Positions 29,059 to 42,262 of a stretch of 45,265 nucleotides of DNA are shown here, piece by piece. Position 1 is the first letter of the stretch. Each line of letters begins with the position of its first letter. The notes beneath the pieces are model-generated. The model was not told where the DNA came from, made no database searches, and saw only the letters and a list, made by a program, of their open reading frames with translations. The stretch is from IMG/VR virus record IMGVR_UViG_3300009175_000029, positions 1-45,265 of that record; one strand, written 5' to 3'. Both the position numbers and the translations under genes were made by a program. Source of the DNA: a virus.

Positions 29059-31397
29059 TGACCCAGACCGAGAGCCGCTGCGGTGTCAGGGGTGATGTCA
29101 GGCGGCTGTGTTCCATCCGGAGCCGGAGGACCAGAGGGAGCCTCCCCGCCACTCGCGTCGGGAGGAGTCGCGCCAGCAGATGATGGGTCTCCGGAGACCT
29201 GAATGGCGTTCTCCGCAGCCGGAGGCGTTCCGACGTTGAACTTGAGGTGCCCGTACAGCTCCGGATACTTCCGCACGGCCTGCGTGATGGTGCCTTGGTC
29301 CTGAGGAACCTCGACCCAGACGGTGACGCTCCAGTTGGTGGAAGCGAACGCCTGTGGGTTGCTGACCGGGTCGCCGCCGAACCAGACAGCGCCCTTGAGT
29401 TTGGGGATGCTGCGGAAGAACTGCTCCAGCGTGTTCACGAGGTCTGTCGGCGGATGCCCGGTTGCCGGCGCACCCGGAGGAAGGCCAGCGGGACCACCGT
29501 CGGGAGCGCCAGCGGGAGAAGGACCTCCGGTGGGAACGACGCCGGTTCCGGGGTCCTGAGGCTGCATGGTCTGCGGACCCGGAGGTGGACCAGTCTCACC
29601 CATCGAGCCGCGCTCCAGACCTTGATTCGTCTGCTCCTGCGCGCCGATTGGAGCGCTCGCCGTCATGCCGCTCTGAGCGACCTGATTGGCGGTGGCGATT
29701 CCCTGTGCCTTCCAGATGCGGTCGCGATTGATAGCGTCGCGCACGCGCTTCTTGTTGTTGATTTGCGGGAGACCGTCGGCGACAGAGTCCCAATCAAGGA
29801 GTTCGTTCTGGTAGAGCTGCATCAGCTCCACCGCGTTTCCCTGCGTGTCCATGTAGTTCTGAGCGTTGAGCGAGACCTCAATCTCAGTCCACATCTCACC
29901 ATTGACCTGAAACTCTTCCGGCATGGCCTCGATGTAGTAGGTCACCTTTCCGGCGGTGCCGGAGCCTTTCAGTGCCTTGGGTTCGTCGCCGGGGAAGTTG
30001 GCCCAGAGCATGAGCATGTACTTGATGACCTGCTTGTAGGCTCCCATGATGATGTCGAGTCGGGTCTGCATCCGCGCGGCGATGGGACCGAGCTGGGCAT
30101 TGAACCCCTTGCCGGTGATGATGGAACCGCCGCCCTCGGAGCGCAGCACGGCGGGGTTGTCGGAGATGAGGTCGAACCAGTTCTGGAGCGTGGTAGACAG
30201 CTCCCAGAAGGAGTTCGGCAGGTCGAGTGGACCGAGTACCCGAGCGTCACCGTTCGGCCCCATGGTCGCCACGCCACCCTGACCGATTGCGAGGTCCGGA
30301 GGCACGTTGAGCGGGTCCTTGATGATGATGGTGGGATGAACCATGGCCTGAGCCATCTCGTCGATGAGGCTCATGTGGTAGTTGATTTGCTTGGCGACCG
30401 GGATGGCGTCCTTGATGTCTGTGGAGCCGAAAATCATGCCCGGAAGGCCCAGCGCACCGACGCACACGATGGGCACGACTCCGATGGGGTTCTCGACCGG
30501 AGGGTGCGCCCACTGCTCGTGGTTGAGGAGCGTGTAGAAGTGCTGCTCGTCAATCATCTGCACGACCTCGATGTCCACCTGACCGATGTAGTCAGGGACG
30601 CCCCAGCGAGCCATGATGTCGTCGCCGTTCATGGGCTCCATCCAGACCGCCTGAGACAACTCCAGACCATCGGCGTCGTAGGCGACGGGATAGAAGTCCT
30701 GCGGGGTGCGCGTGAAGATGCGCGGCACGCCGTGCTTGATGTCGGGCCACACGCCGATAATCGCCCCGTCCATGGCGGAGACTGACCACGCTACGTCGCG
30801 GCAGCGCTTGGGCATGTTGCTGAGGGCAAGCAGTGAGGCGATGACCTGTTCCAGCCGGTCGGCGATATTCTCGCTCCAGTCGGGGTCGGGAGCACCGGGG
30901 ACCGCACTGGGCGCAGTAACGGCAGGCGGAGCACCGGCAGGAGGGGCAGCAAGTGACTGAGCGGCGGCGTCAGCACCGATAGGAGGAGCGCCCGGAGGTG
31001 GAGCGCCAGCACCTAGGGCCAGAGGGGTCGGGGCTCCTGCACCTAGAGCGGGAGCCGCAGCTCCGGGGGCGAACTGAGCGGGCGGCGGGATGACGCGCAC
31101 GGTCGGGGGAAACGAGAGGTAGGCCACCTTGTTCTCGATGGCGGGCTTGATGAGGTTGATTGGCGTCTGGATGGACTTGTCCTCGTCCCCGTCATGGGGA
31201 ACGAAGATGGAAGAGAGGGATGCCGTGATACCCGCGAAGAAGCCAAGACGCTTGGTGTTGCGGAGCAGGTTTCCGCTGTACATGAGGAGAATCTCGTTGT
31301 ACGAGGTGTTTCTCGCTGAGTCACGAGATTTGAGTCGCTGATACAGCTCCTCGACCATCTGGATTCCGTTTGCCCCGCTACCAGTGCTCTTAGCCAT
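29055..31397 (-). CDS. portal protein
   Basis: 780 residues from ATG 31397. Follows TerL, as expected. Helical start (VEELYQRLKSRDSARNTSYNEILLMYSG), a Pro/Ala-rich insert (~110-165), then the conserved portal core: DVAWSVSAMDGAIIGVWPD, PQDFYPVAYDADG, NHEQWAHPPVENPIG..., MSLIDEMAQAMVHP, GFNAQLGPIAARMQTRLDIIM (long stem helix), FQVNGEMWTEIEVSLNAQ. The C-terminal ~200 residues are Pro/Gly-rich and acidic with one folded island (QFFRSIPKLKGAVWFGGD). The portal is the DNA gate at the unique vertex and binds the terminase. Length is at the large end of the family because of the Pro-rich inserts. Confidence 0.8.
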   Translation of the reverse strand: MAKSTGSGANGIQMVEELYQRLKSRDSARNTSYNEILLMYSGNLLRNTKRLGFFAGITASLSSIFVPHDGDEDKSIQTPINLIKPAIENKVAYLSFPPTVRVIPPPAQFAPGAAAPALGAGAPTPLALGAGAPPPGAPPIGADAAAQSLAAPPAGAPPAVTAPSAVPGAPDPDWSENIADRLEQVIASLLALSNMPKRCRDVAWSVSAMDGAIIGVWPDIKHGVPRIFTRTPQDFYPVAYDADGLELSQAVWMEPMNGDDIMARWGVPDYIGQVDIEVVQMIDEQHFYTLLNHEQWAHPPVENPIGVVPIVCVGALGLPGMIFGSTDIKDAIPVAKQINYHMSLIDEMAQAMVHPTIIIKDPLNVPPDLAIGQGGVATMGPNGDARVLGPLDLPNSFWELSTTLQNWFDLISDNPAVLRSEGGGSIITGKGFNAQLGPIAARMQTRLDIIMGAYKQVIKYMLMLWANFPGDEPKALKGSGTAGKVTYYIEAMPEEFQVNGEMWTEIEVSLNAQNYMDTQGNAVELMQLYQNELLDWDSVADGLPQINNKKRVRDAINRDRIWKAQGIATANQVAQSGMTASAPIGAQEQTNQGLERGSMGETGPPPGPQTMQPQDPGTGVVPTGGPSPAGAPDGGPAGLPPGAPATGHPPTDLVNTLEQFFRSIPKLKGAVWFGGDPVSNPQAFASTNWSVTVWVEVPQDQGTITQAVRKYPELYGHLKFNVGTPPAAENAIQVSGDPSSAGATPPDASGGEAPSGPPAPDGTQPPDITPDTAAALGLGQ

Positions 31398-31477: not shown

Positions 31478-33249
31478 CTGTACGCTGGGTTCTTCACGAA
31501 CGTCCCTTTGCCCTTGGGGGTGAACCAAGAGTGGTAGTTGGTGGCATTTCCACGAATCGGAATCTGTGCCAGCCACATGCTCATCACCAAGTCGCATGTG
31601 CCCTTTGGATAGAGCAGAAGGTCGGCTAGGAAGGTCTCCGCCTTGGCCTCGTCGGCTGGCGTCTTGTAGGGAATCCTGAAGCGTCCGTTCTGGAACATCT
31701 CCCCCATCGCGAACACTCCGGCCTCCGGGTCCGTTTTGTTGGTCCCGGTGTAGGATGGGAGGATGATGTTCTGGTCCCGGTAGGGCTTGATGCGGTCGTT
31801 GTCGACAATCCACTTGCCGAAGGCGTTCTTCTCGACTGTACCGACCTTGTAGTGGTACTTGCGGTAAAAACCCTCGATTCCGTACATCTCGTTGCCATCC
31901 AGAAGGTGGTCGAGCATCCGGTCGAACTGGTCCTGCACCTTGAGGTAGTCGATGAGGTACAGATTGCGGTCCTCGGCCGTTTTGTCGTATCCTAGCACGC
32001 AGTAGGCCGCATAGGCGCTCCAGCGCGTTCTGGAGCCGCTTGCCGGGTCGAATCCGAGGTAGACCTCGCACTTATCGGGAACATCTCCGAAAGAGTGCTC
32101 CAAGTCGAGGCATCCGGGGTGCTCAATCGTCTGTCCGTTGATGACCTCGGGTTGACCGCGCACCCACGCCTCGCGGAACGCCATCTCCTCTTCGTTGAAG
32201 GCGATGTTCCGGTAGCGCTTGTTGAAGGCGATGGTGCCGAGGGAGGTTCGCGCAGCGTCGAGCGCCGCCGGTTTCATCATCTTGTCACTCAGCGACACGC
32301 TGCATTTCTTGTCTTTCCAGCAGTCGAACTTGATGCAGGTGAAAGTCGGGTCCCTCATGAGCATCGCGTAGAAAGCCTCCGGATGGAAGATGGTGCCAAC
32401 CACGCCGACGCCCCAGTAGCGCGCCGTCTTCGACCACTTGTATCTACGTGGAATCATGACCCTGTCGTGCGAATCTCTCGCCCAAGCGGCCCTTGGGGAC
32501 GTAAAGGGTCCGATATGGACCCATTCGAGGAACTTTTCGCGCATATCGGGCGTTCTCGCCGTATCTGGGGTCTCGGCGTCGTCGATGTAGACTTGGTCGC
32601 TTCTCTTGCCCAGTTCGGCGTGAGAGTTCGTGCCGAAGAACTCGAAGTTCTCGCGCACGTCCCGCCACTGCCTCTGTTCGACAGAGAACGCCTGATTTGC
32701 CCACGGGACGCTCTTATCGGTCGGCTCGAAGCGTCCGAAGTCGGCCTCAAGCTTGGGATTCGAGAGTTCACGCCGGATGTTGGTCGAAAAGGAGAACGCC
32801 TCGGTCTCGTTCTTTCCAATCATCTGCAAGCGGGCGTTGGGGTTGTCGCAGATGGACATGACCGGCAGGGCGCGGGTGGTGACGATGGTCGTCTTGCCGA
32901 ACGATGCGGGCCAGAGGATGAGAGCGTTGGGCCTCCCGGCTGCACCGGGGGAGTCGAAGTAGTAGGGGGAGAAGCCGGGCTTCCCGGCGTGCTGAATCCA
33001 GCCGTTCTCGAACATCCACTCCATGTCGTTCTCGTCGAGGAACTTGTCCACTTGCTTCTGCGAGCGGAAGCGACCGCGCAGGGTCTTCATCGAGAAGTCC
33101 TGATAGGGGTCGAGTTCGAGGTCGAGGTAGTGCTTACAGAAGAGCACCTCGGCTTGGTCTGATTCCAGCAGCATGTACTTGTACATCTGCTCGTCGTCCA
33201 TGTTCCGCAGTGCTACGTCTGGGTCACTACTCCGTGGGAGCGCCGTCAA
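31474..33249 (-). CDS. terL: terminase large subunit
   Basis: 591 residues; start ATG 33249 overlaps the previous stop (ATGA). ATPase: Walker A WPASFGKTT (113-121), Walker B DQVYIDDAET (219-228), preceded by a tyrosine/aspartate-rich DPYQDFSMKTL region as in other TerL proteins. Nuclease: GFDPASGSRTRWSAY (399-413) supplies the first metal-binding Asp of the RNase H-like domain, with YLIDYLKVQ and a later MSMWLAQIP. It pumps DNA into procapsids and cuts at each end. Lies between the TerS candidate and portal. Confidence 0.92.
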   Translation of the reverse strand: MTALPRSSDPDVALRNMDDEQMYKYMLLESDQAEVLFCKHYLDLELDPYQDFSMKTLRGRFRSQKQVDKFLDENDMEWMFENGWIQHAGKPGFSPYYFDSPGAAGRPNALILWPASFGKTTIVTTRALPVMSICDNPNARLQMIGKNETEAFSFSTNIRRELSNPKLEADFGRFEPTDKSVPWANQAFSVEQRQWRDVRENFEFFGTNSHAELGKRSDQVYIDDAETPDTARTPDMREKFLEWVHIGPFTSPRAAWARDSHDRVMIPRRYKWSKTARYWGVGVVGTIFHPEAFYAMLMRDPTFTCIKFDCWKDKKCSVSLSDKMMKPAALDAARTSLGTIAFNKRYRNIAFNEEEMAFREAWVRGQPEVINGQTIEHPGCLDLEHSFGDVPDKCEVYLGFDPASGSRTRWSAYAAYCVLGYDKTAEDRNLYLIDYLKVQDQFDRMLDHLLDGNEMYGIEGFYRKYHYKVGTVEKNAFGKWIVDNDRIKPYRDQNIILPSYTGTNKTDPEAGVFAMGEMFQNGRFRIPYKTPADEAKAETFLADLLLYPKGTCDLVMSMWLAQIPIRGNATNYHSWFTPKGKGTFVKNPAYR

Positions 33250-33422: not shown

Positions 33423-34062
33423 TGTCAGCGCCCTTGTGAGCACGTTCGAGGTCCTCGATGCGCGAACGTTCGCGGTCGAGGCTGTCCTTGTAGCCGTCAA
33501 TCAGCTTCTTGCGCTGCAACGGGTCGTTGATGCCGTCGAGGAGTTCATCGCTCCGGTTGGGTGTGTCTGAGCCGAGTTTGTTGAGGGTGATACCAGCATC
33601 GAGGATGAGCTTGACAATCTTGATGTGGTCGGCGAGGGAGATTTGGTGCGGGGCGTACTGGACCCTCTCATAGAGGGCGCGGAGTGACTCGCCGCCGACC
33701 TGCTGCCAGAGCAGATGTTCGTTGTCCTTGCGGAACATGGGGTCGGTGCGGCGGATGCGGAAGAGTTCGACCATCTCCCAGAAGTAGTCATCCTCGCCGA
33801 GGAACTTGTTGAACATCTCCACACTGGAGCCACGATACCCGGCGCGGCGCATGACCTCCGCCTTGTTCGGGACAACGACTCCATCATCGTCGAACTGGCG
33901 GCGAGTGCCGGGAGCGTAGACCCACTCACCGGCCTCCATGGCGACGTAGGCCATCGCGGCCATCTCTGTCCCCATCTTCTTCTTTTCGCGCTTCAGCGCT
34001 GTGGGCTTCCCAACCTCACGCTTGCTCGGCACCGGGAAGTCGTCTGAGGAAAACTTGTCCAT
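33415..34062 (-). CDS. terminase small-subunit candidate
   Basis: 215 residues from ATG 34062. Basic N-terminus (KREVGKPTALKREKKK), then a helical DNA-binding-like region (NKAEVMRRAGYRGSSVEMFNKFLGEDDYFWEMV) typical of phage TerS/HTH proteins, and C-terminal coiled-coil (LIDGYKDSLDRERSRIEDLER) for oligomerisation. First gene of the packaging/structural operon, directly upstream of TerL. It would recognise the pac/cos site. The extended -10 (34079-34071) ends only eight bases before the ATG, so the message from it would be nearly leaderless. Confidence 0.65.
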   Translation of the reverse strand: MDKFSSDDFPVPSKREVGKPTALKREKKKMGTEMAAMAYVAMEAGEWVYAPGTRRQFDDDGVVVPNKAEVMRRAGYRGSSVEMFNKFLGEDDYFWEMVELFRIRRTDPMFRKDNEHLLWQQVGGESLRALYERVQYAPHQISLADHIKIVKLILDAGITLNKLGSDTPNRSDELLDGINDPLQRKKLIDGYKDSLDRERSRIEDLERAHKGADNE

Positions 34063-34220
34063 GTACCCTTAGTATAGCATACTTCTGAACGTATCAGTCT
34101 CAACGGATTTTCCTTGAACGTAAATCAGAGTATGCTATACTGAAAGTGAAGGGAACATTTCTTCATCCGTAAAGAGAAATGCTCTTGCTCTTATAGCCTT
34201 GTATCCTACGGAAGGTAAGT
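34063..34220. promoter_or_regulatory. divergent promoter region with a 13-bp inverted repeat
   Basis: 158 bases between TerS (leftward) and the SLT lysozyme (rightward). AGTATAGCATACT (34071-34083) and its exact inverse AGTATGCTATACT (34129-34141) contain facing-out extended -10 elements TGCTATACT. The rightward promoter also has TTGAAC (34114-34119) 16 bases upstream. A TGAACGTA word occurs in both halves (34085-34092 and 34115-34122). In the rightward leader, CATTTCT (34157-34163) pairs with AGAAATG (34175-34181). Confidence 0.65.
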
Positions 34221-34718
34221 ATGTCCTATGGTAAGAAAGTTCTTCTTTGCATGTTCTTGGTTCTCATTGGGTCTCTTCTCACCACTTCTTCTGCTTTTGC
34301 TTTTGCGCCCGCGCACACTCAAACGGTCGGCCCCCGCGCTGCCCATCGGGCCGTTGTCAGAGCAGAGGCAGCGCTCCGCGAGGCTCGCCATGTCGAAAGT
34401 GCGACTCGGTACTACTCAAAGTGCGACTACTCCGCCTTCGCTGGACGCCACGTTGAACCAGCCGCAGTGGGACGCTGGGTTTTCCTTGCTCGTTCCGCAG
34501 GCTGGCAGTGGCCGCAAATCGACATGCTCATGCACATCATCGCCAGAGAGTCATCGGGCTCAAGAACGGCGAAGAACCCAAGTAGCACAGCGAGCGGTCT
34601 CCTACAGGAACTCTCGATGCACTGGGCGGGGAAGTTTGACCCGTTTGACGCATACCTGAACCTCCGCAAGGGCTGGCAGCTCTACTGTGAGGCGGGGTGG
34701 TCCCCGTGGGCGCTGTGA
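34221..34718 (+). CDS. secreted SLT/lysozyme-like peptidoglycan hydrolase
   Basis: 165 residues from ATG 34221 (GGAAGG six bases upstream). A signal peptide is plain: MSYGKKVLL, hydrophobic core CMFLVLIGSLLTTSS, then AFA cleavage near residue 27-29. The C-terminal ~75 residues are a compact lytic-transglycosylase domain: IIARESSG (catalytic Glu110), NPSSTASGLLQ (~119-129), FDPFDAYLNLRKGWQLY and final GWSPW, the short actinobacterial form of the fold. One Cys pair (C68, C156) could form a disulfide outside the cell. It may loosen the wall during infection, or be a lysogenic-conversion product, since it is outside the lysis module. Confidence 0.8.
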   Translation: MSYGKKVLLCMFLVLIGSLLTTSSAFAFAPAHTQTVGPRAAHRAVVRAEAALREARHVESATRYYSKCDYSAFAGRHVEPAAVGRWVFLARSAGWQWPQIDMLMHIIARESSGSRTAKNPSSTASGLLQELSMHWAGKFDPFDAYLNLRKGWQLYCEAGWSPWAL

Positions 34719-35740: not shown

Positions 35741-36760
35741 TCAAGGTGTCGCCTCAGGTGTCCACTGCTGGTTCATGCGCTCAAAAGCCTCGTCCCTCAT
35801 CGTCGGGATGACGGCTGCGTAGGTGGACAGCGTCGTCGTCAGAAACTTGTGCCCGAGGTACTCCTGAACGAGTTTCGGGGATACACCCGCCGCAATCAGC
35901 ATCGTCGCGTAGGAGTGTCGCAGGGCGTGGAAGTTGCACTCCGTACCGACGCGCACGTTGACCTCGTGGAAGCCCCTCCAGAGTCCCGAGGTGGTCAGCG
36001 GCACCAAGAGGTCACCGCCCGCTCCCCGTGGCCCCAAGTAGTGCCGCGTGATGTCCAGCAGTGGAACACGGCGTTCCGAACCGTACTTGCAGGGAACGCG
36101 CTGGCTGTGCCACATCTGACTGCTGATGTTCAGCTCGACCTCCCCCACGTCCATCCAGCGTATCCCCAGCACCTCGCTGAAACGCAGGCCCGCAGTACCG
36201 GCGAGGGCGATGGCACGGCGCACCCCGCCAGTGCTCTCCGTGATGAGCTTTAGCACCTGCTCGCGCGTCGGTGGTTGCGCGTCGAGGTTACGCACCCGAG
36301 GAACGTCAACGCTCGCCAGAGGACTCTTATCGAGGACCTCCTTCTTCCGCGCGGCGGTGAGGGACGAAGCGATGTTGAAGTGCAGGTTGCGGACGGTGCC
36401 GGGGGCGAGCGACTTGCGCTTCTCCGTGTAGTAGTCGGCGAAGATGGTCGGGGTCAACTCGCTCATCTTCAGGTGCCCGAGGTCGGGCTTCAGGTGATTC
36501 TTGACGCTGGATTCGTAGTTGAGTTTCGTGGACGGGGCCACATCGAGCGACTCGACCCACATGTCGAGCCAGTCGGCGAAAAGCATGTCCTTGGAGTGCC
36601 CGTCCTTGGAGACCGTCCGCTTACACCACTCGTAAGCCGAGAACTCGTCGTCGAAGACGCGCTTCATGCGCCGGGGCACGCGCCTGCCGTCGACCATCTC
36701 GGAACCAAAGTAGATTTTGGCCTCGTACCTGCTTCCCACCCTTGCGACGTTGTAGCCCAT
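35741..36760 (-). CDS. int: tyrosine-type integrase
   Basis: 339 residues from ATG 36760 with AGGAGG three bases upstream; in-frame residues further up overlap the divergent operon. N-terminal arm-binding-like domain (KIYFGSEMVDGRRVPRR), SAM-like core-binding domain (FADWLDMWVESLDVAPSTK...YYTEKRKSLAPGTVRNLH) and catalytic domain: Arg193 (AGLRFSEVLGIRW), Lys225 candidate, His278-x2-Arg281 (HALRHSYATML), His304 (YLGHK), Tyr314 (LSTYAAV). All the R..HxxR..H..Y set is present, so it should be active. It integrates the circular genome into the host chromosome, making the phage temperate. Confidence 0.93.
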   Translation of the reverse strand: MGYNVARVGSRYEAKIYFGSEMVDGRRVPRRMKRVFDDEFSAYEWCKRTVSKDGHSKDMLFADWLDMWVESLDVAPSTKLNYESSVKNHLKPDLGHLKMSELTPTIFADYYTEKRKSLAPGTVRNLHFNIASSLTAARKKEVLDKSPLASVDVPRVRNLDAQPPTREQVLKLITESTGGVRRAIALAGTAGLRFSEVLGIRWMDVGEVELNISSQMWHSQRVPCKYGSERRVPLLDITRHYLGPRGAGGDLLVPLTTSGLWRGFHEVNVRVGTECNFHALRHSYATMLIAAGVSPKLVQEYLGHKFLTTTLSTYAAVIPTMRDEAFERMNQQWTPEATP

Positions 36761-36779
36761 GTTCCTCCTATATGGTGTG

Positions 36780-36788
36780 TGGTATACT
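36780..36788 (+). promoter_or_regulatory. extended -10 promoter divergent from the integrase
   Basis: GTGTGTGGTATACTAG contains TGGTATACT (36780-36788), the same element as before capsid and portal. Transcription would start near 36795 and reach the ATG at 36822 after an AAAGGA site. The region is only 61 bases long and also holds the integrase leader (AGGAGG at 36764-36769), so the two units share control DNA. Confidence 0.55.
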
Positions 36789-36821
36789 AGGGTAGTCATG
36801 ACACGAACGAAAGGACACCCT

Positions 36822-36920
36822 ATGGCTGCGACCCCGAAGAAGGCGAACCCCTTCGCGAAGAAGGCGGCTGGCAAGAAGACCGCCAAGTGCCCCAAGTGTG
36901 GCGCTTCGGTGCCCTGCTGA
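36822..36920 (+). CDS. 32-residue Lys-rich zinc-knuckle peptide
   Basis: ATG 36822, AAAGGA six bases upstream, TGA overlapping the ATG of the next gene. Product MAATPKKANPFAKKAAGKKT followed by AKCPKCGASVPC. A histone-tail-like basic arm plus CPxCG and a last Cys; could bind nucleic acid. First gene of a three-gene operon divergent from the integrase. Confidence 0.6.
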   Translation: MAATPKKANPFAKKAAGKKTAKCPKCGASVPC

Positions 36921-37498: not shown

Positions 37499-37556
37499 AG
37501 CCCTCTGGGGACGTTTTGGCCCTTCAGGCAGGTACCCCCTGCTTGGAGGGCTTTTT
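37499..37556 (+). terminator. rho-independent terminator of the 36.8-37.5 kb operon
   Basis: AGCCCTC (37499-37505) pairs with GAGGGCT (37546-37552), followed by TTTT. An inner hairpin GCAGG/CCTGC (37528-37532, 37538-37542) lies within. It overlaps the 3' end of the converging minus-strand gene (37524). Confidence 0.65.
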
Positions 37557-38090
37557 GCTGCCCCTGAGCCTCCCTGTGCGGAGACCGTCCTCAGTCAGTG
37601 ACAGCTCCCTCGCCTTGGCCTTCGCTATAGCCGCGTAGGGACTGTTGACTCGCGCCGAGCAGCTCTGACCGCAGTAGCGATTCCCCGCCTTGACCTGCCT
37701 CACGGTGAGGAAGTTTCCACACCCTTCCCGCGCGCACCTCTGGTCGGACTTTGGAGAATCGAGTACCACCGACCGAGCCTTACCGGCACGAGAACGACCA
37801 GCGCAACTGAGACCGCAGAAGCGACCCCCACTCTCCACCTGCTTGACGGTGAGTTTATTGAAGCACCCCTCACGAGCGCAGTACACGTCACTCAGTTCCT
37901 CCTCGCTCTTGGGGGTAGGTTCCGACAGGTCGTTCGTCGTCATCGCCGCGATATCCTGCCGGGCATCCTCGTAGCGCTCTGCGTGGGACTCCTCGAGCAC
38001 GATGGCTGGCTGCTGCATCCCCGTGAGGAGCCTCAGTGCCTCTGCCACCTCTTCCGGTGAGCCCGATACCCGAATCCGAACTTCTGTCAC
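37524..38090 (-). CDS. protein with two tandem Cys4 zinc motifs
   Basis: 188 residues from GTG 38090 (AGGAGG just upstream). N-terminal 60 residues: a beta-alpha unit VTEVRIRVSGSPEEVAEALR, then an acidic linker. Then two related zinc motifs: YCAREGCFNKLTVKQVESGG...FCGLSC and RCAREGCGNFLTVRQVKAGN...YCGQSC, each C-x4-C-x14~15-C-x3-C and followed by a basic stretch. The duplication is clear at residue level (AREGC.N.LTV.QV..G.R.CG.SC). Probably nucleic-acid or protein binding. It stands alone facing left, beside the candidate origin, so a role as origin or operator binder is conceivable. Confidence 0.6.
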   Translation of the reverse strand: MTEVRIRVSGSPEEVAEALRLLTGMQQPAIVLEESHAERYEDARQDIAAMTTNDLSEPTPKSEEELSDVYCAREGCFNKLTVKQVESGGRFCGLSCAGRSRAGKARSVVLDSPKSDQRCAREGCGNFLTVRQVKAGNRYCGQSCSARVNSPYAAIAKAKARELSLTEDGLRTGRLRGSKKPSKQGVPA

Positions 38091-38275
38091 GGGTCCTCCT
38101 AAGAAAAAAATATTTTCTGAGTACCCGCTCTTGAGGTACTCCCTAGTTCCAGTCAAGCACCCCCCCCGCCGGAAAGCAATAGCAGGAAGATAGTAGAGTC
38201 TGCCTCGCTGTGGCTCCCTTGAATGTCCACAATGCCAGCGCTGCCACGTAGTTATAACACCCCACCTAAGCAATA

Positions 38276-38350
38276 GTTAGTATGCTAACCATTAGCACGC
38301 TAACTACTCTCCTCGGGAGTCTCGGGAGAGAGATAGTTAGACTGTCTAAC
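38276..38350. repeat. operator-like palindromes (TTAG...CTAA)
   Basis: Three inverted repeats: GTTAG-N4-CTAAC (38276-38289), TTAG-N4-CTAA (38292-38303) and GTTAGAC-T-GTCTAAC (38336-38350). A larger stem joins TAACTACTCTCC (38301-38312) to GGAGAG and TAGTTA (38325-38330, 38334-38339). Repeated copies suggest binding sites for one dimeric protein. Confidence 0.6.
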
Positions 38351-38450
38351 AGTTTGGCATCCGTACCTTCCGAATAACAAGGGACTTCTGCTAGCCTTCT
38401 CCCCTACTCCCGTGCTTGGCAATGCGGGTGGTAAGGGTGGGGGCGCCACG

Positions 38451-38489
38451 TGCAATCGTTGTCTATGCAATCGTTGTCTATGCAATCGT
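38451..38489 (+). repeat. 15-bp tandem repeat, 2.6 copies
   Basis: TGCAATCGTTGTCTA at 38451-38465 and 38466-38480, then TGCAATCGT at 38481-38489. Exact copies. Located in the gene-free region; may be an iteron or a replication-slippage product. Confidence 0.8.
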
Positions 38490-38563
38490 GCATCCTAGCA
38501 CGTCGCAGCATGAGGGTTGTGAGGGTTTCGACACTCAAACGTCTAAACCGATTCTAGCCTTTT

Positions 38564-38960
38564 CGGAATGTGCCGATTTGCAGGTACTTTGCAATCAGGC
38601 TGTCCCCATCCCTCCCGTAACTTAGTGGTCGCTTACTTGCCTGCAAATGGGCACTTTTTGCCCCCAATGTTCGATTATGTTCGGTGTCTCAAATCGCCTC
38701 TAAATACGTAGGATTCCTACATCAAACTCCCCTAAGAAGGCCATTTAGCCTGCCGTTTAGCTAACCAACCAATGTTCGGTCCTGTGCGTGTATGTTCGAG
38801 TCTGAGCGTTTCCCCTACGCGCGCGTGACGGCCGCGCGTCTGAGTGTGCTTTCTAGCAGCCTAGCCGCCAGAAAGATTGTCAGATTCGGAAAAACACCTG
38901 CAAATCGGCACTATTTGGAATGTAGGATTCGGAAAAAGCCCTGCAAATCGGCACTATTTG
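38564..38960. repeat. iteron-like repeat family CTGCAAATCGGCACTATTTG
   Basis: Two 20-bp exact copies at 38898-38917 and 38941-38960, each preceded by GATTCGGAAAAA (38883-38894, 38926-38937), so a unit of period 43. A third copy with two changes is at 38641-38660. A fourth, inverted and partial, is at 38571-38584. Directly repeated 20-mers next to AT-rich sequence are typical of initiator-binding iterons. Confidence 0.7.
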
Positions 38961-39056
38961 AACCGTGTTGACTCCTGTTGACGGAAGGTATTGACTATCG
39001 GTGCAAGGTCAAATCGGACTAAAGGGGTCGCCATTAGCTAAGCACGTTCAGCACAA

Positions 39057-39412
39057 GGGACGACAGTCCCCGATTGCGTTTCAATCGGTCCCGTCTCTCG
39101 AATCGGCCTTCTCCCCAGAGGTCCACCATATTGGGGCCAATCCGCTAGGCCACATAGGATGAATGTGGCGCGAAGGTGCTAAGCCTTCCGGCCTGCCGAA
39201 CGGCAGGCTCACAGAATGGCCGAAGAAGAACTACGTACACGATTCGAGCCCCAGCCTAGCAAGCTAGGAACCCTCAGACGTGTACGTGGCCGTGTGGGAT
39301 AGGCTCACACGGCTATGCGCCGTCTGCCGAGAATGGCTACTATATCGGCAGGCACAAACAAACGGAACCGGAAGGTGACGCCCGAATGGGACGCTAGGCT
39401 GCAATGCCTAGC
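39057..39412 (+). ncRNA. hairpin-dense region upstream of the amidoligase operon
   Basis: Perfect stems in order: GGGAC/GTCCC (39057-39070), CGATTG/CAATCG (39071-39087), GCCACAT/ATGTGGC (39149-39169), GCCTGCCG/CGGCAGGC (39191-39208), ACGTACACG/CGTGTACGT (39233-39287) enclosing CCTAGC/GCTAGG (39255-39268), GCCGTGTG/CACACGGC (39289-39313), CTGCCGA/TCGGCAG (39324-39351), GCTAGGC/GCCTAGC (39393-39412). It ends ~30 bases before the ribosome site of the next gene. The first GGGAC can also pair with GTCCC at 39088-39092, an alternative fold. Strand is given as that of the following operon. Function as RNA is not shown; an origin structure is the alternative. Confidence 0.45.
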
Positions 39413-39454
39413 CTGAATGAGAGTCGAATCCCAAACTGTAGGAGGACTGCTACC

Positions 39455-39811
39455 ATGGACGATATGGCATTCGAAGCTAAGAGGATAGGCGCGAAGATTA
39501 TCGCGCACTACACACCGCGCCACGATAACACCTGTCGCGTGCTTGCTGAGATTCACGGTAACGTACAGCCATTCGTCGTCTACGTCTGGACGGGTACCAT
39601 CTTCATCTGGGGACACTACTTCGCCACGCTCGACGAAGCGCGCGCCGACTTCGCGCGAATGACAGTTGTGATGGACGCCAAGCTGGCGGCCGAACAGGCC
39701 GCGCGGCCGCGAATCAAGATGGGCGACACGTTCCTTCACGCTACCTTCGCCGAACTGGCTGAGGGTTGCGACTTGACCGAATCGGACGATTTGCTCGACT
39801 CTGCCGACTGA
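39455..39811 (+). CDS. hypothetical protein leading the amidoligase cassette
   Basis: 118 residues from ATG 39455, with GGAGG at 39441-39445. Sequence MDDMAFEAKRIGAKIIAHYT, EIHGNVQPFVVYVWTGTIFIW and FATLDEARADFARMTV: an alpha/beta domain (strand-strand-helix, residues ~10-75) followed by a helical acidic tail (AELAEGCDLTESDDLLDSAD). No family recognised. Reads with the amidoligase gene 66 bases downstream, so it may assist or regulate that pathway. Confidence 0.65.
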   Translation: MDDMAFEAKRIGAKIIAHYTPRHDNTCRVLAEIHGNVQPFVVYVWTGTIFIWGHYFATLDEARADFARMTVVMDAKLAAEQAARPRIKMGDTFLHATFAELAEGCDLTESDDLLDSAD

Positions 39812-39877
39812 ACAGGCTACTCCACAGGTTAGCAGCCTGAATGTCCACTCACCCGATACAGATTGGAGTTACCTAAA

Positions 39878-41230
39878 ATGTTTGGCGATACTCCCCCCAG
39901 CGCGGCCGATTTGCGGACTCTCGGATTCGATTTCTCCCGCACGTTCGGTGTGGAACTGGAGTTTTACTCGAATGACTACTCTCGCGACGAGATGGCGGCG
40001 AATCTCTCCCAGTCCACCGGACTCGACATCACGTCCCTCGAATACCACGATGCGCATAACGACTCCATGGGCTGGAAAATCGTGAGCGATGGTAGTCTCG
40101 ACGACTCAGAATACCGAGACGACGACGGAGAGTACGACTGCGATAACTGCGAGATGAACAGTTCGCGGTGCGACAATGATTGCTCGGAACACTGCGAGCC
40201 GAACGAATCATACTCCACCCGTCACGGGATGGAACTGGTCACGCCGGGCAACGCCGACGCTTTGCGCGGAACGGCCGGTATCGCGGACCTCTGGAACGTC
40301 TGCAAAGCGCTCAACCGGACGTATCCCGAGGTCGATTCCACCTGCGGGTTGCACGTCCACAGCGCGGCTGGCGACTTCAAGCTTCCGCAGTTCCAGCAGC
40401 TTGCTCGCCTGTACCTGAAGTACGAGGACACACTCGACGGGCTCATCCTGCCAGCGCGGCGCAACGGCGGCAACTGCCACGTCCGCAGTCTCACCGACGG
40501 CTACACTGGAACGGCGCACGAGATTGTCGCGAGAATCGACAGCGCGGATAGCCTGTACGATATCTGCCGGAACTGGCGCGACCGCTACACGACTCTCAAC
40601 CTGTATTCCTACGAGCAGCACGGGACGGCTGAGATTCGCCAGCATGAAGGAACGACCGATTTCGAGCGGATTCTTTGCTGGCTCATCCTCACTCAACGTA
40701 TCCTGAACGCGAGCTTCGGTGAGCCCTTGACGGCCGCCGACTTCGCCGACGACACCCTGCCGAGCCTTCCCGCCTTGATGGATGCACTACAGGCACCGCT
40801 CCAGCTGCGCTCATACTGGCAGACCATTGGCGATGACTACGCCGAGCAATACCGGCGCGACCTTGCGCGCCGCGAAGAGGTACGGATTCAGCAGGCCGAG
40901 TACGAGGCTCGCCGCCAAGCCCGCATGCGTGAGGATGAGCGAGTCCAGCGCTTGGCTCGCCGCGAGTTTGCCATCGTCCGCCAAGCAGTCGCGGACGAAA
41001 CGCCCCCGAGCTTCGCGCCGATGCCGGTGCGCTACCCTGACCGTTTCCGCCTCGCCGAGTCGGTCGAGGCGATGACGTATAACGAAATTAACGCCGAGCG
41101 CATCGCCGAAAACGCTCGCTTGGACGCCGAGCGTAACGCGGCCCGCGTCATTCGCGCGGCCGAAGATAGGAACTGGCGGCACGTCGCCAGAGTCGAGCGC
41201 CGCGAGCGTGCGCTTTGTGGCGCAGCATGA
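39878..41230 (+). CDS. amidoligase-family enzyme (Amidoligase_2-like, COOH-NH2 ligase)
   Basis: 450 residues; ATG 39878 chosen over an in-frame TTG at 39863 because GGAG (39865-39868) fits it. Motifs of the glutamine-synthetase/GCS-like amidoligase fold: FGVELEFY (24-30), SDGSLDD (70-76), MELVTPG (118-124), STCGLHVHS (154-162), then the RYTTLNLYSYEQHGTAEIRQ and HEGT segment (236-259) with the 'EhR..eGT' strand. The family joins a carboxylate to an amine with ATP. Between DGS and ELVTP lies an unusual insert with five Cys (C88, C91, C98, C102, C106) and many Asp, perhaps a metal site. The C-terminal ~150 residues are a long Arg/Glu helix. Substrate unknown; partner is the cyclotransferase downstream. 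Confidence 0.8.
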   Translation: MFGDTPPSAADLRTLGFDFSRTFGVELEFYSNDYSRDEMAANLSQSTGLDITSLEYHDAHNDSMGWKIVSDGSLDDSEYRDDDGEYDCDNCEMNSSRCDNDCSEHCEPNESYSTRHGMELVTPGNADALRGTAGIADLWNVCKALNRTYPEVDSTCGLHVHSAAGDFKLPQFQQLARLYLKYEDTLDGLILPARRNGGNCHVRSLTDGYTGTAHEIVARIDSADSLYDICRNWRDRYTTLNLYSYEQHGTAEIRQHEGTTDFERILCWLILTQRILNASFGEPLTAADFADDTLPSLPALMDALQAPLQLRSYWQTIGDDYAEQYRRDLARREEVRIQQAEYEARRQARMREDERVQRLARREFAIVRQAVADETPPSFAPMPVRYPDRFRLAESVEAMTYNEINAERIAENARLDAERNAARVIRAAEDRNWRHVARVERRERALCGAA

Positions 41231-41247: not shown

Positions 41248-41493
41248 ATGAAAATCCACACGCGAGATGACGTGACCTTCACCGGCACGCCCGAGCAAGT
41301 CGTCGGTTTCCTCTGGAAAACGGCGTTCCTGCGGAACACAAGCCCGCCCAAGTACATGCGAGCCGTCGCGCGCCGAGTCAAGCTCGCGAGCGGCAAGCGC
41401 CCGCGCACTGACACCGCCGCGCATTTCCTCGCGGACCTCGCGGAGGCAGGCGTCATAACGATACTGGAGGTCGACGATGGGGCGACGCAATAG
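41248..41493 (+). CDS. small protein of the amidoligase cassette, 81 aa
   Basis: ATG 41248, GGAG nine bases upstream; its end overlaps the cyclotransferase gene by 17 bases. MKIHTRDDVTFTGTPEQVVG, FLWKTAFLRNTSPPKYMRAV and RRVKLASGKRPRTDTAAHFL: short beta strand, two helices, strongly basic middle. No enzyme motif. Always between the two enzymes here, so possibly a carrier, adaptor or substrate peptide; this is speculation from position. Confidence 0.65.
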   Translation: MKIHTRDDVTFTGTPEQVVGFLWKTAFLRNTSPPKYMRAVARRVKLASGKRPRTDTAAHFLADLAEAGVITILEVDDGATQ

Positions 41494-42262
41494 GCGTGAC
41501 TACTGGCAGAAAATCGACTGGCCGAAGTACCTCGCGACGCTCGAGGCCGAGTACGCGACGCACTCCCGCCTGTACCTCGGGTACGGCTCAAATCTGAACG
41601 TCCTACAGATGCAGGCGCGGTGTCCCACCAGCCTTCCGGTCGGGAAGTTCAGGCTGAGGAATCACAAGCTCGTCTTTTCCTCGGTACTCACTGTCGAGAA
41701 GTGCAAGGGCTCAAGCGTACCTGCTGCACTCTGGCGCGTAGCTCCGCAGGATATCGCGTCGCTCGACTCCTACGAGGGCTACCCGCACCTCTACGACAAA
41801 CAGACCTGCCGCGCGTGGGTGGGAGGCAAGCCCGAAACTGCCTTCTACTACACGCTAAACGAGCCCTACGCGGTCGAGCCCCCGTGCATATCCTACTATG
41901 AAACGTGCGCCGAGGGGTACGCCGAGTTCGGGCTCGACCTAAGCGTACTCGACGCAGCGGTCGCCGAGGCCAAGGTCGCCGAGCGCGAGGCCGAGGGCAC
42001 TATCGAACAGTGCGGGGCCTGCATGGAGCACGGCACGCGCGGCGCGATGGAGTATACCCGGAGCTTCGGCTACCTCTGCCCGCCTTGCGCGAAGATGCTC
42101 GGCTACGACTGGAGCTACGACAGCGACCGCCCGGCCTACGACTACGACGACACCACCGGGTCGAGCCACCGCATCAGCGACGACTATGACCTCATGCGCG
42201 AGCTTGACTGGACCCGCGACGAATCGCGGGACGTGTGGGACGGAACCAATCTGACACTCTAG
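41477..42262 (+). CDS. gamma-glutamylcyclotransferase-like enzyme fused to a zinc ribbon
   Basis: 261 residues from ATG 41477, GGAGG six bases upstream. GGCT/AIG2 fold: LYLGYGSNLN (32-41; the YGSN binding loop), HKLVFSS, WRVAPQDIASLDSYEGYP (catalytic Glu100 in the E-G motif), then AFYYTLN. The family cleaves gamma-glutamyl amine bonds with formation of 5-oxoproline. After residue ~175 comes an extra part: CGAC (179-182)...CPPC (201-204), a four-Cys zinc ribbon, then an acidic Tyr/Asp-rich tail. I do not know this fusion from ordinary GGCTs. With the amidoligase it could make and release gamma-glutamyl-type linkages. Confidence 0.8.
   Translation: MGRRNRRDYWQKIDWPKYLATLEAEYATHSRLYLGYGSNLNVLQMQARCPTSLPVGKFRLRNHKLVFSSVLTVEKCKGSSVPAALWRVAPQDIASLDSYEGYPHLYDKQTCRAWVGGKPETAFYYTLNEPYAVEPPCISYYETCAEGYAEFGLDLSVLDAAVAEAKVAEREAEGTIEQCGACMEHGTRGAMEYTRSFGYLCPPCAKMLGYDWSYDSDRPAYDYDDTTGSSHRISDDYDLMRELDWTRDESRDVWDGTNLTL

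Follow-up and report, generated by a model that had tools for sequence, protein, structure and literature searches.

Structured leaders and large RNAs are both known kinds of phage element. Among the described systems, the putR element of phage HK022 is located some 270 nt along its transcript (PMC9378689), and the large ROOL and GOLLD RNAs, of 659 nt and 800+ nt respectively, are often found near tRNA islands (PMC12286853). The locus considered here belongs to IMGVR_UViG_3300009175_000029, an uncultivated tailed temperate virus of bacteria, whose 45,265 bases together constitute the window that was analysed. The terminase, an SU10-type capsid protein and the tail genes are coded on the minus strand, and a control region of about 1.2 kb precedes a rightward operon comprising p118, an amidoligase, a gamma-glutamyl cyclotransferase and small genes (Table 1). 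The structured segment lies in the right half of this control region, GC content is low at 38001-39000, and the relatives G001 and G002 also carry non-coding DNA at the position matching 38274-39454. No family match was obtained for p118, and no tRNA or tmRNA genes were detected by ARAGORN in the 45 kb.

Exceptional structure at 39057-39412 had been proposed in a first-pass annotation, together with folding against dinucleotide-shuffled controls as a check, and is borne out by the calculations. The RNA MFE of the segment on the plus strand is -161.8 kcal/mol and lies outside the shuffled range: 100 dinucleotide shuffles gave -124.7 +/- 5.7 (z -6.5), and none was as low; a repeat of the folding test with 150 shuffles gave z -6.7 on the plus strand and -4.5 on the minus strand. 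When the whole sequence was scanned on both strands in non-overlapping 356-nt windows (16 shuffles each, standard deviation fixed at 5.7), the segment ranked first among the 252 windows, with values of -6.1 on the plus and -5.1 on the minus strand against about -3.5 for the next unrelated window. Over the 300 nt preceding p118, the RNA z is -7.1 on the plus strand vs -3.8 on the minus strand.

Perfect hairpins, counted as Watson-Crick stems of at least 5 bp with loops of 3-9, number seven in 39057-39412 against 1.9 +/- 1.2 in shuffled sequences (seven reached in 1 of 500), and five of at least 6 bp are present against 0.55 (0 of 500). An excess of hairpins is thus upheld, and the predicted fold is larger than the first-pass annotation described. 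The count of seven is equalled at 30973 and 41297, and the distinctness of the segment therefore rests on the combined fold. The neighbouring intergenic DNA is far less structured, as claimed earlier, in most 120-nt tiles, but not in the upstream stretch 38780-38899, where structure is moderate (z -2.7/-3.2).

The predicted fold contains eleven local hairpins, several of them nested by the helices P3 and P4. P3 has a mean pair probability of 0.95, which stays at 0.90-0.93 with coding sequence included, while the outer helix P1, with a probability of 0.99 when folded by itself but of 0.69 or 0.01 once coding sequence is added, is uncertain because of a competing pairing with the start of p118. 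The 9-bp stem said to surround another hairpin was confirmed, the inner one lying at 39255-39268, and the repeated word was recovered as GCTAGGC at 39144 and 39393 and as GCCTAGC at 39254 and 39406. The alternative partner suggested for hairpin H1 does exist, GGGAC at 39057-39061 being able to pair with 39066-39070 or 39088-39092, but the fold in which the latter is forced is about 8 kcal/mol worse (-169.1 vs -177.1), and the predicted partner of 39088-39094 is 39386-39392 instead of H1. Forcing alternative long-range helices costs 8-12 kcal/mol. Pairing of the loop GATTCGAG (39241-39248) with 39097-39104 could form a pseudoknot. With the hairpins held fixed, the linkers pair over long range better than shuffled linkers (equalled in 6 of 300 trials, z -2.3), a modest sign from the folding model that the hairpins are parts of one integrated single-strand fold and not independent. 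The predicted pairs are mostly Watson-Crick (G-U in 10 of 124), which makes both strands foldable and the strand test weak.

Table 1. Features of the control region and of the genes on either side of it.
Feature	Position	Strand	Remarks
Integrase	35741-36895	-	
Zn/HNH-like protein	37524-38273	-	
Non-coding control region between integrase-side leftward genes and rightward operon	38274..39454	.	From ORF list
Four iteron copies of 20-mer CTGCAAATCGGCACTATTTG	38564, 38641, 38898, 38941 (38564..38960)	-, +, +, +	One inverted
Three TTGAC boxes, -35-like, just 5' of fold	38968, 38978, 38990 (38968..38995)	+	From sequence
Predicted multibranched RNA, ~375 nt	39045..39419	+	
Outer helix P1, 7 bp	39045-39051/39413-39419	+	Predicted; uncertain
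Hairpin H1, GGGAC-GACA-GUCCC	39057..39070	+	Alternative partner 39088-39092
Hairpin H2, CGAUUG-CGUUU-CAAUCG	39071..39087	+	
Long-range helix P3, 7 bp	39088-39094/39386-39392	+	Encloses most hairpins
Domain closed by P4 (39103-39112/39213-39223)	39103..39223	+	Hairpins 39113-39136, 39144-39171, 39172-39188, 39190-39209
9-bp stem 39233-39241/39279-39287	39233..39287	+	Around hairpin 39255-39268
11-bp hairpin	39288..39314	+	2 G-U
9-bp hairpin with inner stem	39322..39353	+	
Small hairpin ACC-GGAA-GGU	39363..39380	+	GNRA-type loop
7-bp hairpin GCUAGGC-UGCAAU-GCCUAGC	39393..39412	+	
Shine-Dalgarno AGGAGG and spacer, then ATG 39455	39440..39454	+	From sequence
p118, first rightward gene, 118 aa	39455..39811	+	
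Amidoligase	39878..41230	+	phrog_2443, E 6e-20; scanned as ORF 39863-41230
Gamma-glutamyl cyclotransferase (AIG2-like)	41477..42262	+	phrog_2520, E 6e-29; PF06094, E 3e-9

The interpretation preferred here, and held tentatively, is that the fold may constitute a multibranched 5' leader RNA of about 375 nt, co-transcribed rightward with the p118-amidoligase-cyclotransferase operon. It is regarded as the best reading because the fold reaches a good ribosome site with no terminator between: the segment is non-coding and ends, as the first-pass annotation had stated, just 5' of AGGAGG and the ATG at 39455, and no intrinsic terminator was found on the plus strand between the fold and p118. The hairpin 39393..39412 was itself considered as an intrinsic terminator and rejected, a T run being absent 3' of it. 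The exceptional rank of the segment and the stronger RNA signal on the plus strand are also consistent with a leader, as is the linker pairing, which favours an integrated single-strand fold. Transcription would start upstream of the fold, close to the TTGAC boxes and the iterons. Acting in cis on the operon, the RNA would more likely affect RNA polymerase, through pausing or antitermination, or the stability of the transcript than ribosome access. Simple sequestration of the Shine-Dalgarno sequence is unsupported, since the predicted folds leave this site between about one half and three-quarters open. Counting against a leader are the folding of both strands, the loss of P1 once more coding sequence is included, and the failure to recognise a promoter: a sigma-70 scan of the control region returned none, and no good -10 follows the TTGAC boxes. 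In contrast, an extended -10 (TGCTATACT) is clear at 34133 of the same phage. There, a long inverted repeat AGTATAGCATACTTC/GAGTATGCTATACTGA at 34062-34230 carries this extended -10, mirrored on the opposite strand, and probably provides divergent promoters between a terminase-side gene and a rightward gene.

Several repeats were observed beside the fold. The four-iteron region 38564-38960 adjoins it on the upstream side in the low-GC stretch, and a 43-bp tandem repeat at 38875-38960 contains the last two copies of CTGCAAATCGGCACTATTTG; these copies are iterons or operators, and a resembling word lies close to the start of G002. A tandem 15-mer, GCAATCGTTGTCTAT, occurs at 38452-38567, within about 120 nt of non-coding DNA that the relative G004 matches almost exactly. 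This stretch is more conserved than the flanking genes and is possibly an attachment or regulatory site. The word AGCCTGAATG is present at 39410-39419 and 39834-39843 and nowhere else in the window on either strand, each copy lying about 35 nt 5' of a start codon (those of p118 and the amidoligase) and 3' of a short hairpin, a repetition that could be due to chance.

Related loci were collected from IMG/VR by terminase searches, which yielded eight and then twelve, and four long records were compared; no terminase relatives were found among genome contigs. The closest long record, G004, shows 89.7% identity over 184 nt (about 38391-38567), where its contig ends, and the two nearest relatives, G004 and G009/L029, are both fragments that do not cover the fold. 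In G001 and G002, repeat-rich non-coding DNA lies between the same flanking genes, mutually similar and unlike the window, and the 400 nt preceding the first rightward gene (assigned via its ribosome site) have no significant plus-strand structure (z about -2.3), which counts against the leader reading. The case for a leader is helped by the distant relative G006 (IMGVR_UViG_3300025864_000003; terminase 67%), the only one of the four long records with an amidoligase, which also carries the cyclotransferase: the 400 nt directly 5' of its first rightward gene reach z -7.8 (31900-32295; L024:11900-12295). However, this segment shares position only. It has no sequence similarity to the fold and is dominated by one long near-perfect hairpin near the gene, its Shine-Dalgarno sequence is paired in a closing stem (GGCUCC/GGAGCC), and the gene itself has no match to p118; both strands score about equally, so the G006 segment too may be a DNA element. 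The association with the amidoligase operon suggested by the first-pass annotation holds for position, but a general leader of the amidoligase family was rejected, most other such loci lacking the structure: when 18 were scanned on the plus strand up to 2.5 kb upstream, 16 had no window beyond z -3.6. The exceptions, as rough estimates, were L082:953-1252 (z -5.5) and L078:5777-6076 (z -3.9).

Searches for homologues of the fold in Rfam, phage and plasmid records, IMG/VR scans and covariance models, over collections from which the closest records to the window may be missing, returned none and hence no covariation, a point against the leader. With Rfam 15 (including ROOL, GOLLD, OLE, riboswitches and group I/II introns) nothing in the whole window exceeded the gathering threshold, and BLASTN against phages and plasmids gave just 25-28 nt matches (E 0.4-5). 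A BLASTN match of the hairpin at 39390-39414, intergenic in Caulobacter phages, was taken as chance. IMG/VR pattern scans with two 18- to 19-base linkers of the fold found none, single-sequence covariance models of two domains recovered from 1.1 Mb of loci the source alone and one minus-strand overlap (E 0.85), and these models, R1 and R2, found nothing in the 18 other amidoligase loci. Searches with the neighbouring proteins (p118, amidoligase, Zn/HNH-like, cyclotransferase and terminase) did find relatives, none of which carries the fold sequence.

The large structured RNA envisaged by the first-pass annotation is partly supported, its folding energy having withstood comparison with dinucleotide shuffles, and its other suggestion, DNA structure used in replication or packaging, deserves to be weighed beside it. 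The inverted repeats could be sites to which proteins bind, or hairpins extruded from the DNA, within an origin of replication or a region controlling lysogeny beside the iterons. This is rather unlikely on balance, though the iterons and tandem repeat lie just upstream in a low-GC stretch, both strands fold with DNA parameters (z -5.6 and -4.8), the GCCTAGC/GCTAGGC words recur, and G001 and G002 have repeat-rich DNA at the same place. The hairpin sequences differ except for the CCTAGC word, the stems are GC-rich, the nested long-range pairing exceeds that of shuffled linkers and the RNA signal is stronger on the plus strand, all of which speak against a DNA element. No initiator gene is tied to the four iterons, and packaging is unlikely from the position of the fold, about 5-6 kb away from the terminase genes. 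A separate large phage ncRNA, trans-acting or processed in the manner of ROOL and GOLLD and expressed in the lytic cycle independently of the downstream genes, is also unlikely, and slightly more so. Its size, branching, possible pseudoknot and phage setting would suit such an RNA, as would the accessible Shine-Dalgarno sequence, which shows no evident translational role, but it lacks an own terminator and an Rfam match and is shorter than ROOL and GOLLD; tRNA genes are absent from the window too, although the association of those RNAs with tRNA islands is described as "often" (PMC12286853) and is not decisive.

A functionless, compositional excess of hairpins is improbable: conservation is not demonstrable and the hairpin count recurs elsewhere in the window, but none of the shuffles is as stable and the segment leads the 252 windows by a wide margin. 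Far less credible still is an RNA anti-CRISPR, in which H2, read from the minus strand, would serve as a decoy or imitate a CRISPR repeat. The sole Rfam match at relaxed E-value is indeed CRISPR-DR56 at 39060-39095 on the minus strand, but its 19.4 bits are far under the gathering score of 35 (E 0.3-0.9) and compatible with chance, it accounts for 36 of the 375 nt, and no anti-CRISPR context was identified. The matched stretch contains ATTGAAAC.

The group of temperate phages to which the virus belongs is undescribed; if an RNA is indeed made, the fold would be a large structured leader in their control region and might represent an unknown regulator of the early operon. Comparison with the relatives suggests for regions of this type a divergence far more rapid than that of the neighbouring genes, by which they would escape homology-based RNA searches. 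It is conceivable, though doubtful, that the fold belongs to a class of large leader or ncRNA new among phages, without a relative in Rfam 15, phage and plasmid records or the IMG/VR scans and placed where other members of the group have unrelated sequences; the position would then be preserved while the RNA is replaced rapidly. The fold is filed as an orphan, of no named family, within two known kinds, the structured leaders and the large RNAs of phages. It resembles ROOL and GOLLD as a large, highly branched phage-encoded non-coding RNA, but is shorter, has no Rfam match or nearby tRNA genes and stands directly 5' of a ribosome site. The put RNA of HK022, which brings about RNA-based processive antitermination, has about 70 nt and two stem-loops as against about 375 nt and eleven hairpins here, a comparison of length and number of stems; the likeness would lie in a structured RNA that precedes the early genes of a temperate phage and forms part of its early transcript.
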